DNA from: Solobacterium sp.
GTDB lineage: Bacteria; Bacillota_I; Bacilli_A; Erysipelotrichales; Erysipelotrichaceae
Assembly (NCBI GenBank): GCA_024680365.1
Contig: JAILCN010000028.1
Span: forward strand, 1 to 61,537
Direction: 5' to 3'
Length of the DNA stretch: 61,537 nt
Shown here in pieces: positions 43,025 through 52,673 of this stretch (positions within the stretch are counted from its first letter, which is position 1; each line of letters opens with the position of its first letter). The translations under genes were made by a program, and so were the position numbers. A model generated the notes under the pieces. That model ran no database searches, had not been told where the DNA came from, and worked only from the letters and a program-made list of their open reading frames with translations.

Positions 43025-43549
43025 ATGGGTTTATTTGACAAGCTTCTGGAAGAAGCAAACAAAGTAGTAAAAGAGGTAGCAACAGAAGAGAACAAAGAGA
43101 AAGCGCAGGAATTTCTGAATGTTCTCGGCAAAAAGCTGAACGACGCAGCCGGTGAGATCAAAAACACACTGGAAGATCTGAAAGAAGAAACACAGTCATC
43201 GTCTTCTGCTTCCGCGGATCTGTATGAGCCGGACGGCGATGACAGAGATGTGAAGGACAAGATCATGGATGTTCTTTACGAAGACTTCTCCCAGTACCGT
43301 GTCAGATGCGATGTTTCCCCGGCAGAGTTCGGCGGAACAGGCCGCTTCATGAACTATTCCATCGCTGTATTTGATGAAGAAACACCGAAGCTGCTGATCA
43401 TGCTGATCGGCAAGACAACGACTTCACACCGTGAATACAGATGGAGCAGGGAAGTGGCTGAAGCAAAAGGCATTCCGTTCATCAATTTCATTCGTCACTA
43501 TCCGAACCGCATTGACTATATCAGACAAAGATTACACAAATATCTGTGA
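43025..43549 (+). CDS. Uncharacterised protein upstream of RT element (Lys/Glu-rich N-terminal helix, alpha/beta C-terminal domain)
   Basis: RBS ACGGAGG; MGLFDKLLEEANKVVKEVATEENKEKAQEF...PKLLIMLIGKTTTSHREYRWSREVAEAKGIPFINFIRHYPNRIDYIRQRL. Confidence 0.8.
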   Translation: MGLFDKLLEEANKVVKEVATEENKEKAQEFLNVLGKKLNDAAGEIKNTLEDLKEETQSSSSASADLYEPDGDDRDVKDKIMDVLYEDFSQYRVRCDVSPAEFGGTGRFMNYSIAVFDEETPKLLIMLIGKTTTSHREYRWSREVAEAKGIPFINFIRHYPNRIDYIRQRLHKYL

Positions 43550-43705: not shown

Positions 43706-44941
43706 ATGGACAAAACAAGTCTGATCGATCAGCTTTCTGATCCCGCTGTATGGAATGCATTTCTGGAAGACCGCAGCAAACGTTCGCGCCTGAGTGAGCG
43801 CGATCTGAAAGAACTGCGGGTTTTCGTCGGGGACCAGGCATACCGCAGGATTACATCAGACATGCATTTCGGACTGCCAGAAAAGAAAAGCATCGTGAAG
43901 ATGGGATCATCGAAGAAACGGATCGTGTACAGCTACGGCAGGGATGAGACATGGATCCTGAAGCTGCTGACATGGCTTCTGGAACAATATGGATCATCGT
44001 TCGCTGATTCCTGTTATTCATTCCGCAGAGAGCGGACCGCAAAGGATGCGTTCGTGAGGATCAGAACAATTCCTGATCTGGATCGGCTGTACGCGGTCAA
44101 GGCGGATATCCATGATTACTTCAATTCCATGGATACTGATATCCTCTGTGACAAGCTGGCGGAGATTATGAAAGAGGATCCAAAGCTGCTTTCCTTTCTG
44201 CATGAGCTTCTGCATCAGGATGCCTGTGTAGAACACGGAATGATCGTGCCGGAGAAGCGGGGCGGCATGGCCGGTGTTCCGGTGTCCGCTTTCTTCGCGA
44301 ATGTATATCTGACAGAGTTGGATAAACGATTTGAAACAAAAGGAATTCCATACTTCCGCTATTCAGATGACATCCTGTTCTTTGCAAAGACAGAGGAAGC
44401 GGCAGAAGAGGGATTCCGGATGATCGAAGACTATCTGGCAGAGGTGCGCCTGACGATCAATCCGGACAAAGTATCTGTTTCAAAGCCAGGGGAAAGCTGG
44501 GAGTTTCTCGGCCTGAAATATGCCGGCGGACAGTTTGACCTGTCGGATGTCACGGTTGAAAAAATGAAGGGGAAAATACGCCGCAAGGCAAGAGCGCTGT
44601 ACCGCTGGCGCTGTGAAAAAGGCGCATCGTTCCAGCGGGCGGCTTCGGCAATGATCCGCTCCTTTGACCGGCAGTTCTACGATCTCAGCGGCGACAGTTC
44701 CTTCTGCTGGACGCGCTGGTTCTTTCCGCTGATCACCGTTTCATGCGGGCTGAAGCAGATCGACGAATGCATGGTGGAATACCTGCGCTATCTGTCCAGC
44801 GGGCGGCACTACAAAGGCAACTACAGGATCACTTACGAAGAGCTGAAAAAGCTTGGCTACACACCGCTGGTCAGTGAATATTACAGATGGATCAGAGACT
44901 GCGAAAGTCTGCGGGAGGCAGACGGACAGGATCAGACATGA
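43706..44941 (+). CDS. Stand-alone RNA-directed DNA polymerase (reverse transcriptase), group-II-like
   Basis: RT motifs: KKRIVYSYGRDETWILKLLTWLLE, CYSFRRERTAKDAF, VKADIHDYFNSMD, GGMAGVPVSAFFANVYLTELD, FRYSDDILFFAKT, WEFLGLKYAGG; no HNH endonuclease domain seen. Confidence 0.88.
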   Translation: MDKTSLIDQLSDPAVWNAFLEDRSKRSRLSERDLKELRVFVGDQAYRRITSDMHFGLPEKKSIVKMGSSKKRIVYSYGRDETWILKLLTWLLEQYGSSFADSCYSFRRERTAKDAFVRIRTIPDLDRLYAVKADIHDYFNSMDTDILCDKLAEIMKEDPKLLSFLHELLHQDACVEHGMIVPEKRGGMAGVPVSAFFANVYLTELDKRFETKGIPYFRYSDDILFFAKTEEAAEEGFRMIEDYLAEVRLTINPDKVSVSKPGESWEFLGLKYAGGQFDLSDVTVEKMKGKIRRKARALYRWRCEKGASFQRAASAMIRSFDRQFYDLSGDSSFCWTRWFFPLITVSCGLKQIDECMVEYLRYLSSGRHYKGNYRITYEELKKLGYTPLVSEYYRWIRDCESLREADGQDQT

Positions 44942-46296: not shown

Positions 46297-47364
46297 ATGA
46301 CAAAGTTTAATGACGGGAAAATGTGGGCTCTCGTCAAAGAAAAGCCCGAAGAAGGTCTTTGGATGAAGCGTGTTCCGATCCCGAAGGTCGGAACCAACGA
46401 CGTCAAGATCAAGATCCTGAAGACTGCGATCTGCGGCACGGATGTTCACATCTGGCAGTGGAACAAATGGGCGCAGCACACGATCGATATCGGCAGGGTC
46501 GTCGGTCATGAATACGTCGGCGTGATCGTCGAAGCCGGACCCGGCGCCCGCGGTTTTAAAGTCGGCGATTTTGTCTCCGGCGAAGGACACATCACCTGCG
46601 GCAAATGCCGCAACTGCAAAGAAGGACACAAGGAAAACTGCAAGAACGCGGAAGGCGTGGGCGTCAACCGCGACGGCGCATTCGCAGAATATCTGGTCAT
46701 TCCCTATGTCAACGTCTGGCCGTGCAGTCCCGATATCCCGCAGGAAATGTACGCCATCTTTGATCCGTTCGGCAACGCGACGCATGCGGCGCTGTCCTAC
46801 GACGTGCTTGGCGAAGACGTACTGATCGCCGGTGCCGGACCGATCGGCTGCATGGCAGCTGCCATCGTCCGCTTTGCCGGTGCCCGCCACGTTGTCGTCA
46901 CTGATTTCAATCCGTACCGTCTGGAAATGGCAAAGAAGCTCGGTGCGACGACCGTGGTCAATCTGAAAGACGAAAAGCTGGAAGACGTCATGAAGCGGAT
47001 CGGCATGCAGGAAGGCTTTGATGTCGGCCTTGAGATGTCCGGCTCGCAGGCAGCCCTCAACAGCATGATCCACAACATGAAGCACGGCGGCAACATCGCT
47101 TTGCTGGGACTGCTGGAAACAGATACCGTAGTCGATATGGAGACCGTGATCTTCAACGGTCTGAACCTGAAGGGCATCTACGGACGCAAGGTCTGGGATA
47201 CCTGGTACAAGATGACGACGATGCTGCAGGCAGGACTTGATATTTCTGAGATCATTACCCATCATTTCGATATCCGTGATTTTGAAAAAGGCTTTGAAGC
47301 GATGATTTCCGGTCAGTCAGGAAAGGTGATCCTGGACTGGACACACATCAACGAGGAGAGATGA
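46297..47364 (+). CDS. tdh: L-threonine 3-dehydrogenase
   Basis: [29 protein letters not shown], zinc-site [17 protein letters not shown]; followed by kbl. Confidence 0.92.
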
Positions 47365-47366
47365 AC

Positions 47367-48563
47367 ATGAACAAACAGGAAGCACTTGCATATTATTCCA
47401 GCCAGGTGGAAGAGATCCGGCAGGCAGGGCTGCTGAAAGGAGAACTGCCGATCGCCTCTTCCCAGGGCGCTTATGTTACGCTGAGCGACGGCAGAAAGCT
47501 GCTCTGCATGTGCGCGAACAACTATCTCGGCCTGGCCGACAGTCCGCGGCTGATCGAAGCCGCAAAGAAAACGTATGACGAACGCGGCTACGGCGTTGCT
47601 TCGGTGCGCTTTATCTGCGGCACGCAGGACATTCACAAACAGCTGGAACAGAAGATCTCCGGTTTCCTGAAGACCGAGGATACGATCCTGTATTCCTCCT
47701 GCTTTGATGCCAACGGCGGCCTCTTTGAAACGCTGCTGAATGATCAGGACGCGGTGATCTCGGATGAGCTGAACCACGCTTCGATCATTGACGGCATCCG
47801 CCTGTGCAAGGCAAAGAGATACCGCTATAAAAACAACGACATGGCTGATCTTGAGGCAAAGCTGAAGGAAGCGGATGAAGCAGGCGCAAGGATCAAGCTG
47901 ATCGCGACAGACGGTGTCTTCTCCATGGACGGCATCATCTGCAATCTCAAAGGCATCTGCGATCTGGCTGACAGATACAATGCTCTGGTCATGACAGACG
48001 ATTCCCATGCGGTCGGCTTTGTCGGAAAGACAGGCCGCGGCACGGCGGAATACAACGGCGTTGAGGGCAGGGTGGACATCATTACCGGCACTCTCGGCAA
48101 AGCGCTCGGCGGCGCATCCGGCGGCTATACGTCAGGACGGAAAGAGATCATCGATCTGCTCCGGCAGAGAAGCCGTCCGTACCTGTTCTCCAACTCTCTG
48201 GCACCGGCGATCGTCGGCGCCGGCATTGAACTGTTCAATACGCTGGAGGAAAGCACCGCACTGCGCGACCATCTGGAAGAGATCACAGTCTACTACCGCA
48301 GAAAACTGGAAGAAAACGGCTTCGACGTGATCCCCGGCACGCATCCGTGCGTTCCGGTCATGTTCTATGACGAAAAAACAACGGCAGAGTTTGCAAAGCG
48401 CATGGTGGAAAAAGGTGTTTACGTAGTGGCGTTCTCCTATCCGGTCGTGCCGAAAGGAAAGGCGCGGATCCGCACCCAGCTGTCAGCTGCCCATACGAAG
48501 GAAGATCTTGATTTCGCCATGAAATGCTTCTGTGAAGTCCGCAGTGAGATGGGACTGAAATAA
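47367..48563 (+). CDS. kbl: Glycine C-acetyltransferase (2-amino-3-ketobutyrate CoA ligase)
   Basis: [61 protein letters not shown]. Confidence 0.93.
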
Positions 48564-48665
48564 GATTTTGACAGAAGTGAAGAAATATGGAAAAAACCGG
48601 CCTGTTTGTAGTATGATTTGAGTAACAAAAAACTGTATTCATGAAATGAAAATCAGGAGGATAAC

Positions 48666-49964
48666 ATGAAAACAATTACGTATGAAATTACCAACCCGTT
48701 GGGAATGCACGCACGTCCGGCTGCTTTTGTCGCGCAGGCATGTGTAGCACTTCCTTCCCAGATCGTCATTAAGTGCAACGGCAAAAAGGCAAACGGCGAC
48801 AACGTTCTTCAGATCCTCGCGCTCGACGCTCAGCAGGGTTCCGTTCTTGAGATCTCCGCTGAAGGCGGCGATGAAGATGCTGCACTGGCTGCTGTCAAGG
48901 GCGAACTCGATCAGAGACTCAAGAGATACTCTGAGGTTCCTGTTCTGAAGATCGCGTTCTTCGGCGCAAAAGACTATGACAGAATCTTCTTCTCCGAACT
49001 GGCAAGAGACATCGGTGAAGGTTCCTACAACTGCGATATCAAATACTTCAATGCACGTCTCACACCTGAAACAGCAGGTCTGGCAAAGGGATTTGACGCT
49101 GTCTGCATCTTCGTCAACGACGAGTGCCCGAGAGCAGCTGTTGAAAAACTTCATGACTGCGGCGTCAAGCTGATCCTTCTGCGCTGCGCAGGATTCAACA
49201 ACGTTGACCTGCAGGCTGCGAAAGAATGCGGCATCCGCGTTGCCCGCGTTCCTGCTTACTCACCGTATGCAGTTGCGGAACACGCTATGACACTTGCCAT
49301 GACGGCAAACCGCCGCATGCACAAGGCTGTCAACAAAGTAAAAGACAACAACTTCGCTCTGAGCGGACTGCTCGGTGTCGACCTACACAATAAAGTTGCC
49401 GGCATCATGGGAACAGGAAAGATCGGCCAGTGCATGGCTCATATCTGCAAAGGCTTCGGCATGACAGTCATCGGATGGGACGCATTCCCGAACCAGAAGC
49501 TCGTTGATGAAGGCCTCCTGACTTATGTTGATAAAGACGAACTGCTCCAGAAGGCAGATCTGATCTCCCTGCACGCACCGCTGATCATGGGCCCGAACGG
49601 CACATATCATCTGATCAACGCGGAAGCGATCGCAAAGATGAAGGACACAGCGATCCTCGTTAACACAGCCCGCGGCGGACTGATCGACAATGAAGCTCTG
49701 ATCGATGCGCTGAAGGAAGGCAAGTTCCACGCTGTCGGTCTCGACGTATACGAAGGCGAAGACGCGAACGTTTACACAGACCACTCCGACGACTACCTGG
49801 TCAACGACATCACAGCAAGACTGCAGATGTTCCCGAACGTTGTTCTGACATCCCACCAGGCATTCTTCACAAGAGAAGCTCTGCAGGCAATCGCTGCTGT
49901 TACTCTTGAAAACGCACGCAACTTCAACCAGGGTGTTGATCTCGGCGCAGCTGAGTGCAAATAA
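48666..49964 (+). CDS. HPr domain fused to D-2-hydroxyacid (D-lactate type) dehydrogenase
   Basis: N-terminal HPr signature NPLGMHARPAAFVAQA; from about aa 92 D-LDH fold with LLRCAGFNNVDLQAAKE, GIMGTGKIGQ, VNTARGGLIDNEAL, LTSHQAFFTREAL. Confidence 0.93.
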   Translation: MKTITYEITNPLGMHARPAAFVAQACVALPSQIVIKCNGKKANGDNVLQILALDAQQGSVLEISAEGGDEDAALAAVKGELDQRLKRYSEVPVLKIAFFGAKDYDRIFFSELARDIGEGSYNCDIKYFNARLTPETAGLAKGFDAVCIFVNDECPRAAVEKLHDCGVKLILLRCAGFNNVDLQAAKECGIRVARVPAYSPYAVAEHAMTLAMTANRRMHKAVNKVKDNNFALSGLLGVDLHNKVAGIMGTGKIGQCMAHICKGFGMTVIGWDAFPNQKLVDEGLLTYVDKDELLQKADLISLHAPLIMGPNGTYHLINAEAIAKMKDTAILVNTARGGLIDNEALIDALKEGKFHAVGLDVYEGEDANVYTDHSDDYLVNDITARLQMFPNVVLTSHQAFFTREALQAIAAVTLENARNFNQGVDLGAAECK

Positions 49965-49985: not shown

Positions 49986-50017
49986 AAAGCATGTCTTCAC
50001 AGGCATGCTTTTTTTAT
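49986..50017 (+). terminator. Rho-independent terminator
   Basis: AAAGCATGTC / GGCATGCTTT then TTTTT. Confidence 0.9.
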
Positions 50018-50113: not shown

Positions 50114-50713
50114 ATGAACGAAGAGAACAGAAAAGAATACTGCCCGCACTGCGAAAACCATTGTCCTGCCGATCATCCCGGATGCGGAAGAGGTGTCAGA
50201 TATTTTGAAGAAGATATGGAAGAAGACTTCAGAGAAGAAAGACATCACGGCCGTCCGCATGACCCGGAAGAAGGGGAAAGACACTTCTGCGGCAGAAGAC
50301 ACGGACATCCGCACCATCCGCATCCCGAATGGGCAGGTGATCCGGAAAGCCTGGAAGGCCTGTTTGTCCGCTGTGTGCGCAGGATGCATCATCAGCACGG
50401 CCGCTTCGGCTCTACCCAGGACCGCATCATCCGGATCCTGGATGAAAACGGCGGCACGATGGGTCAGAAATCCCTGCAGGAGCTGATGCGTGTCAGGCCC
50501 GGCTCGATCAGCGAGATCCTGACAAAGATGGAAGAGAAGGGGCTGATCGAAAGAAAAAAGGATGCCGATGACAGACGGGCATCGCTGATCACCCTTACGA
50601 CGGAAGACCGTCCGGAAACACCGCAGACATCCCTGTTTGATGTACTGACTGATGAAGAAAAGGAGAACCTGAAGCAGCTTCTGAAAAAGGTGCTGGAACA
50701 GGAAAACGGGTAA
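50114..50713 (+). CDS. MarR family transcriptional regulator with His/Cys-rich N-terminus
   Basis: CPHCENHCPADHPGC...HHGRPHD...GRRHGHPHHPHPEW then wHTH ...GGTMGQKSLQELMRVRPGSISEILTKMEEKGLIERKKDADDRRASLITLT. Confidence 0.85.
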   Translation: MNEENRKEYCPHCENHCPADHPGCGRGVRYFEEDMEEDFREERHHGRPHDPEEGERHFCGRRHGHPHHPHPEWAGDPESLEGLFVRCVRRMHHQHGRFGSTQDRIIRILDENGGTMGQKSLQELMRVRPGSISEILTKMEEKGLIERKKDADDRRASLITLTTEDRPETPQTSLFDVLTDEEKENLKQLLKKVLEQENG

Positions 50714-51073: not shown

Positions 51074-51108
51074 AAAAAGGATCTGTTAAACCGGAAGTTT
51101 AACAGATC
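51074..51108 (-). terminator. Rho-independent terminator of DUF2828 gene
   Basis: GATCTGTTAAAC-CGGAA-GTTTAACAGATC perfect 12 bp stem, CTTTTT downstream on minus strand. Confidence 0.8.
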
Positions 51109-52550
51109 TTTAAATATGCTTCAGAATGCAGGATCTTCATCATGTATTCATACGGCGTACTGACATCATCATCCGCCAGATGTTCAAAGACTGAGGCGGA
51201 CTGGCCGGATACCAGCAGGATATTCTCTGTATCACAGGATGCGTGGAATGTATTCCGGCGGGCATTCAGATTCCAGAAGACAACTTTCGGAAGAACATAG
51301 CCATGGGAGGCAAACAGTTTTTTCATGGCGTCTGAAAACAGCTGGTTCAGTCCGTAAGTACAGACATCGATCTCCATGTCAGAGAGGATCACCAGAGAAT
51401 CCGGCATGTCTTCCTGCGGCACATGATGACGGACAGCTGCGGAAAGGATCAGCCGGAAGGCAGCTTCGAGATCAGTGTTCATATCCCAGTCCGCCGTACG
51501 TACAGATTCAATTTTCTCAAAGAGGGAGCTGCCTCTGATCTCAACAAGCTCAGGACGTCTGGAGAATGTCATGAAGCGGTTGCGGAAGATGCCCTGATTG
51601 CGCTGGGCAAACCAGATCGCCAGTGAGACAGAAGCGGCAAGCGGTCTGCCGTACATGGAACCGGATACATCTGCCATGACCAGGCATTTTCTGCTTCCCC
51701 GCACAAAGTCAGGCATCGCGTCCCACTGTGCTTCCAGCACAGGATCTTCCTGACGGATCCGGTACAGATACTGTTCCGCGATATCATACGGATACAGCAC
51801 GCGGCTGTTCAGAGAAGAACGCTGTTCCCTGACATCCTGCAGCCAGTTTTCAAACCGCTGCGGATCATGACGCTGGAAGGCATTGCGGTACAGCTTCATC
51901 GCGTATGACGGAACAGATGGATAGGAGATCTGCTCATATGCCTGAGCAGACAGGAAACATTCCGTGACATTGATATAGTTCCGCAGGGCGGACAGTGTTT
52001 TCCGGTATGTCCGTTCGCTCATGCCGAGCGCTTCCGCCAGACAGCGGGCGGTCTGTACTGTCTCACGGGAAGAGGCGTTGACAGACGGCAGCCATTTGCC
52101 AAGCAGGGAAACTGCTTTGCCGGCAGCCATCTGTTTCTGATCTTCTCTGAGCTGTGTTCTGATCAGCCGGATCACATCATCTTTTAACGGTGTCTTCAGC
52201 AGACAGAGCAGATCATCCCATCTCCCGTATTCCGGGATGTACTGCAGGTTTCTGCGCAGCAGCTTCGGTCTGAAGACCGCCAGGGTCTGAAAGAAGATGC
52301 GGGCGGTGCGCCGTTCGCCCAGTCCGCTGCGGATATCTCTTGTGTAGAAGGCAAGCTTCAGAGCTGCAGTTTCATCTTCCTGCAGTGCTCTGAGGAACAG
52401 CCGGGCAATGTCCTCCGGCTTTCTCTCTCTGAGGGCGCCGGCCATGAAGAAGGCATCTGTCATGGCAGAGCCTGATGTGTTGTGCGCGTATGCGCCGTTT
52501 TCTGTAACAGATCTCATCTGTTCATTTCTGATCGCATGAAGCAGTGTCAT
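51099..52550 (-). CDS. DUF2828-like / TROVE-related protein with VWA domain
   Basis: N-terminal helical repeat-like region; VWA MIDAS-like VMADVSGSMYG and SLVILSDMEID; GGAGG RBS before MTLLHAIRNEQ. Confidence 0.75.
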   Translation of the reverse strand: MTLLHAIRNEQMRSVTENGAYAHNTSGSAMTDAFFMAGALRERKPEDIARLFLRALQEDETAALKLAFYTRDIRSGLGERRTARIFFQTLAVFRPKLLRRNLQYIPEYGRWDDLLCLLKTPLKDDVIRLIRTQLREDQKQMAAGKAVSLLGKWLPSVNASSRETVQTARCLAEALGMSERTYRKTLSALRNYINVTECFLSAQAYEQISYPSVPSYAMKLYRNAFQRHDPQRFENWLQDVREQRSSLNSRVLYPYDIAEQYLYRIRQEDPVLEAQWDAMPDFVRGSRKCLVMADVSGSMYGRPLAASVSLAIWFAQRNQGIFRNRFMTFSRRPELVEIRGSSLFEKIESVRTADWDMNTDLEAAFRLILSAAVRHHVPQEDMPDSLVILSDMEIDVCTYGLNQLFSDAMKKLFASHGYVLPKVVFWNLNARRNTFHASCDTENILLVSGQSASVFEHLADDDVSTPYEYMMKILHSEAYLKIC

Positions 52551-52673
52551 AGATGCCTCCTTTCCCGGCAGAATACCAGGCGCATGATCGCTTTTCCTCA
52601 ACAGATGTATTTGCTGTGAGCGCCTGCATAAGCAGTATGCATCAGGAAGCATCTTTCTGCACTAAACCTCTCG

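Follow-up and report, generated by a model that had tools for sequence, protein, structure and literature searches.

We found that a single gene of Solobacterium sp. encodes an HPr domain fused to a complete D-lactate dehydrogenase (D-LDH), and that this HPr domain keeps the histidine used by Enzyme I and has asparagine at the position of the serine used by HPr kinase (HPrK). The gene lies in a 61,537-nucleotide stretch of DNA, the whole of which is referred to here as the window. Both halves are members of known families; the novelty lies in their being joined, in the conservation of the fusion and in the way it is probably wired. Our literature search, in which coverage of subscription journals was thin and an earlier mention is possible, returned no HPr-LDH or other HPr-dehydrogenase fusion, and the HPr-D-LDH fusion is apparently undescribed. 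Its composition suggests that, in the bacteria that carry it, the state of sugar transport exerts direct control over lactate production. If this is true, placing HPr in a fermentative dehydrogenase would connect sugar uptake with the lactate branch directly and at the post-translational level. Among the carriers is the rumen lactate producer Kandleria vitulina. Low methane yield in sheep has been linked with the lactate that Sharpea and Kandleria form, and a D-LDH gene was strongly expressed in Sharpea of low-methane sheep (Kamke et al., PMC5069950).

The gene and its features occupy the following positions within the window:

48607 to 48617, forward strand: probable extended -10 promoter element TGTAGTATGAT, from a sequence scan and its recurrence upstream in relatives
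48655 to 48660, forward strand: Shine-Dalgarno sequence AGGAGG, the fusion gene's own
48666 to 49964, forward strand: HPr-D-LDH fusion gene, a single open reading frame of 432 amino acids with an ATG start; Pfam PTS-HPr, 2-Hacid_dh and 2-Hacid_dh_C domains; orthologs full length
48666 to 48911, forward strand: HPr domain, residues 1-82; PF00381, gapless alignment with solved HPr, HPr topology in the structural model
48708 to 48710, forward strand: His15 codon, the Enzyme I phosphorylation site of HPr; from alignment, invariant in 37 of 37 fusions
48714 to 48716, forward strand: Arg17 codon, active-site partner of His15; invariant in 37 of 37 fusions
48801 to 48803, forward strand: Asn46 codon, at the position of the HPrK target Ser46; from alignment (Asn 31, Asp 5, Ser 1 among 37)
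48912 to 48944, forward strand: linker, residues 83-93; variable in sequence (17% mean identity), near-constant in length
48945 to 49943, forward strand: D-LDH part, LdhA type, residues 94-426 (start at about 94); phmmer, and Foldseek with 5z21 as best match
49671 to 49673, forward strand: Arg336 codon, substrate-binding arginine; 47 of 47
49758 to 49760, forward strand: Glu365 codon, catalytic glutamate; 46 of 47
49854 to 49856, forward strand: His397 codon, catalytic histidine; 47 of 47
49986 to 50011, forward strand: intrinsic terminator, an 11-pair stem followed by a T run

The first-pass annotation of this DNA had described residues 1-90 as HPr with the histidine targeted by Enzyme I and had proposed a search for PF00381 and 2-Hacid_dh domains; both domains were found above their gathering scores, and the description of the HPr half is upheld. 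Pfam PTS-HPr matched residues 4-78 (E = 1.2e-20; 73.7 bits against a gathering score of 23), and the NCBIfam model TIGR01003 (PTS_HPr_family) scored the HPr half at 66.5 bits against a cut-off of 47.9. In a phmmer alignment with HPr of Bacillota, which required no gaps, the fused domain showed the His15 and Arg17 of the active-site loop that characterize the HPr family, and Asn46 took the place of the Ser46 that characterizes the HPrK-regulated HPr of Bacillota.

That annotation had also placed a complete D-2-hydroxyacid dehydrogenase from about residue 92, which agrees with the Pfam matches to 2-Hacid_dh (residues 122-423, E = 4.3e-29) and 2-Hacid_dh_C (residues 208-399, E = 1.2e-48), both above gathering scores. 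The best phmmer matches of this half were D-LDHs of Fusobacterium, E. coli, Salmonella and Pseudomonas (E = 1e-87 to 1e-93), and Foldseek likewise returned D-LDH structures, so that its nearest relatives are the characterized or solved D-LDHs that define the LdhA type. The NAD motif GTGKIG is present, as are Arg336, Glu365 and His397, which we take to have the catalytic roles assigned in known D-2-hydroxyacid dehydrogenases; an NAD motif and the same catalytic residues occur in the LdhA-type enzymes of Fusobacterium (5z21) and E. coli (5z1z), which are 44-46% identical to the fusion in structural alignment. We conclude that the second half is a complete LdhA-type D-LDH, which is predicted from its sequence to reduce pyruvate to D-lactate with NADH and differs from its stand-alone LdhA-type relatives in having an N-terminal HPr domain. 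The literature searched contained no confirmation of the D isomer as the product of Kandleria or Eggerthia. An AlphaFold2 model of the fusion (mean pLDDT 86.5; pTM 0.73) reproduced the HPr topology at a pLDDT of about 90 and did not give a confident docking of HPr onto LDH. Fusion-specific residues occupy only five positions of the LDH half, so that a new regulatory interface is not obvious there.

Comparison of 37 fusions revealed mean pairwise identities of 52% for HPr, 17% for the linker and 76% for the LDH part, which indicates that the HPr half evolves faster than the LDH half. Within this variable domain, Gly13, His15, Ala16 and Arg17 are invariant (37/37) and Pro18 is kept in 35 of 37. 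Because His15 and Arg17 persist amid such variation, and because Enzyme I is encoded by every fusion genome checked, phosphorylation of the fused His15 by Enzyme I is strongly implied. The serine recognized by HPrK had been described as apparently lost in the first-pass annotation, and this is correct for the window protein and for 36 of the 37 fusions, in which residue 46 is asparagine (31) or aspartate (5); it does not extend to a fusion from a MAG labelled Selenomonadaceae (L057:679-1986), which has Ser46 within GKSILQL and is the sole such fusion found. The L057 fusion branches first in the HPr tree and, with weak support, inside the LDH tree. A separate observation concerns Cys26 (48741-48743) at the end of HPr helix A, which is kept in 36 of 37 fusions, is alanine in the canonical HPr of the same genome and is possibly a redox or structural residue.

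On phosphorylating HPr, Enzyme I yields pyruvate from PEP, and D-LDH uses up pyruvate and NADH. We propose, with about an even chance of being right, that the fusion is a D-LDH that carries its own PTS input domain, in which Enzyme I would set the state of His15 from PEP/pyruvate and sugar flux and HPrK and CcpA would be bypassed. Enzyme I would phosphorylate His15 of the fused domain, and with His15 intact the phosphorylation state of the domain should reflect PEP/pyruvate and sugar influx, such that the ratio of phosphorylated to unphosphorylated His15 would be signaled to the very enzyme that removes pyruvate and NADH. Since residue 46 is not serine, HPrK should be unable to mark the fused domain, which would lie outside the CcpA catabolite-repression branch and could be read by Enzyme I even when canonical HPr is serine-phosphorylated. 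We infer that His15 phosphorylation affects LDH activity, and the direction of the effect is likewise inferred: the likeliest, although a guess, is that the unphosphorylated form, which would prevail under fast PTS uptake and low PEP/pyruvate, favors LDH and that the phosphorylated form damps it. Against the proposal count the lack of a confident HPr-LDH docking in the structural model, the poorly conserved linker, the small number of fusion-specific LDH positions and the absence of a conserved PTS neighborhood. A broader version of this proposal, which we hold slightly more tentatively, is that a PTS phosphorelay switches D-LDH in cis as a one-protein flux sensor from uptake to lactate without HPrK or CcpA, and that the roles of HPr are split among a canonical form with His15 and Ser46, a Crh-like form with Ser46 only and the LDH-fused form with His15 only.

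The conservation data also bear on an alternative in which HPr serves mainly as a dock that holds D-LDH at Enzyme I or at PTS IIA proteins, so that local pyruvate is drawn off with no phospho-switch. The hydrophobic patch through which HPr binds partners (positions 47, 48 and 51) is preserved as Val, Leu and Leu in at least 34 of the 37 fusions, the substrate of LDH is released by Enzyme I, and the linker is flexible and of near-constant length. However, docking alone would not need invariant His15 and Arg17, and we regard it as unlikely, although the best placed of the alternatives to a phosphorylation-dependent input domain.

The first-pass annotation had further proposed that the fusion be surveyed across taxa, and the fusion proved to be recurrent. 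A scan of one genome per species identified full-length fusions in 36 public records, with one nearly full-length protein in each of L033-L068; these 36 ranked ahead of the first stand-alone enzymes, and an additional record (L069) ends at a contig edge and is uninformative. The named carriers are Kandleria vitulina (L068), Eggerthia catenaformis (L047) and Eubacterium pyruvativorans (L065), and the others are MAGs labelled Erysipelotrichaceae, Lachnospiraceae, Oscillospiraceae, Selenomonadaceae or other Bacillota. Carriers are mostly gut and rumen Bacillota, with many of the MAGs originating from ruminants. In the order to which the window belongs, the fusion was present in one piece in 25 of 60 sampled genomes, the window's own included, and was split over two contigs in one more; across the phylum, an even draw placed it in 11 of 396 genomes. 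Two complete-looking genomes, G036 in every family search and G241 in the fusion search, yielded zero first-look candidates, which perhaps reflects a data gap or another genetic code. Full-length orthologs at 60-94% identity occur in many independent genomes, isolates as well as MAGs, which rules out a frame or assembly artefact and chance.

Phylogenetic analysis placed the 37 fused HPr domains in one clade (99/96), separate from the canonical, Crh-like and other paralogs of HPr. The dehydrogenase tree likewise resolved the fusions as one clade (100/100), which adjoins stand-alone D-LDHs of Gemmiger, Lachnospiraceae and Atopobiaceae and within which no HPr-less or stand-alone enzyme was seen. 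Because both halves form single clades, we conclude from these trees that, within the sample, the fusion formed once and was then retained. A separate HPr gene beside the stand-alone D-LDHs was considered as a forerunner, and none was detected in L070-L112.

The window's genome encodes Enzyme I (G000:C112), canonical HPr (G000:C20) and HPrK (G000:C230), as do the sampled fusion-bearing relatives, and Enzyme I was also found in the genomes of L041, L047, L057, L065 and L068. The presence of canonical HPr rules out that the cell has no HPr other than the fusion. It also weighs against the possibility that the HPr domain is a spare phosphocarrier, which would relay phosphate from Enzyme I to particular IIA proteins insensitively to HPrK, with LDH as a mere carrier. 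Retention of His15 and Arg17 together with loss of Ser46 is what would be expected of a phosphocarrier that HPrK cannot throttle, but the fusion has no link to any particular PTS operon, and the choice of LDH as partner in every case would call for another reason; we therefore consider this explanation improbable, more so than docking.

Genome content is informative about the metabolic role of the fusion. NAD-dependent L-LDH, scored at the family cut-off, was found in none of the 14 fusion genomes that belong to the genus, and it is present in 5 of 26 fusion genomes versus 24 of 33 genomes without the fusion (Fisher p = 6.3e-5, in a comparison that spans two families, takes no account of kinship and includes several incomplete MAGs). 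These results suggest that fusion-bearing genomes tend to have the fusion in place of L-LDH, as would be expected if it were their chief enzyme for converting pyruvate to lactate. The first-pass annotation had suggested that PTS flux could be coupled to lactate formation; such coupling through a fused input domain is plausible, and it is consistent with a lactate-sink role because of this tendency.

The single-domain HPr paralogs of relatives comprise 29 canonical proteins with His15, Arg17 and Ser46, 12 Crh-like proteins with Tyr15, an altered residue 17 and Ser46, and six with His15, Arg17 and Lys46. The Crh-like proteins (L150, L152-L155, L157-L162 and L169) form one well-supported clade (99/96), and the Lys46 proteins (L156 and L163-L167) form a clade of their own. 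Six fusion-bearing genomes, including that of Kandleria, also encode a Tyr15-type HPr, and the fused HPr is identical to the canonical HPr of the same genome at 22 of 88 residues. The 12 paralogs without His15 have lost Arg17 as well, which indicates that joint retention of the two in fusions is not automatic. This finding, together with the invariance of Gly13, His15, Ala16 and Arg17, makes it very unlikely that HPr is a structural leftover that is no longer phosphorylated and only aids folding or oligomerization, even though the HPr half is the faster evolving and its HPrK site is already gone. Judged by these residues, the two phosphorylation sites of HPr seem to have been shared out among paralogs, and the copy fused to LDH has retained only the Enzyme I site. 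Crh of Bacillus keeps Ser46 and lacks His15. Like the fusion, it is thus an HPr relative that keeps one of two phosphorylation sites, but the fusion is its mirror image, with His15 kept and Ser46 lost.

The fusion resembles HPr itself (PtsH; PF00381, TIGR01003) in fold and in its His15/Arg17 active site, and it differs in being the N-terminal domain of an enzyme, in having Asn46 and in forming a clade distinct from the canonical HPr that these genomes also encode. In a 2008 phylogeny of the PTS chain, HPr occurred singly or fused with Enzyme I and usually IIA domains (PMC2405797). Such multiphosphoryl transfer proteins (FPr/FruB and DhaM types) also incorporate HPr into a longer, multidomain polypeptide (PMC2405797), whereas the fusion pairs it with a metabolic enzyme and, according to Pfam, has neither Enzyme I nor IIA domains. 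HPr domains also serve as input modules of a non-PTS protein in the sigma54 activators of Clostridiales (PMC6615313), in which the output is transcription rather than catalysis. Free HPr of E. coli binds and regulates PykF, PfkB, NagB and Adk (PMC8167557). This regulation is the nearest functional precedent for the fusion, since it too targets central metabolic enzymes, but there HPr acts in trans and in the fusion it is covalently attached. The earlier proposal that central carbon enzymes are regulated through contact with HPr becomes cleanly testable with the fusion, because sensor and enzyme are one molecule.

We also examined the surroundings of the gene. The extended -10 element TGTAGTATGAT recurs 5' of the fusion gene in L033, L034, L035 (with one change) and L044. 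Searches for cre and Rex operators upstream of the fusion gene gave best matches scarcely above those in shuffled sequences, with no site in common. The upstream neighbors encode a zinc-binding dehydrogenase (46297-47364) and an aminotransferase-fold protein (47361-48563), which we read from their sequences as a probable threonine dehydrogenase and 2-amino-3-ketobutyrate CoA ligase, and the downstream neighbor encodes a MarR regulator (50114-50713). No conserved operon or PTS neighborhood was found around the fusion loci, with the commonest neighbor family occurring in five loci. Neighboring genes do not travel with the fusion, and therefore the fusion gene is most likely a separate transcription unit. 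Farther downstream, the reverse strand encodes a 517-amino-acid protein with DUF2828 and DUF7788 domains (51099-52652). Farther upstream, on the forward strand, is a reverse transcriptase (43706-44941) that matches the UG26 class of defense-associated reverse transcriptases from end to end (E = 1.5e-154). The gene before it (43025-43549, forward strand) encodes a 174-amino-acid protein that matches the associated RTasCOG2852 family weakly but along its full length (E = 2.4e-5); by these matches, the pair looks like a complete UG26 candidate defense system.
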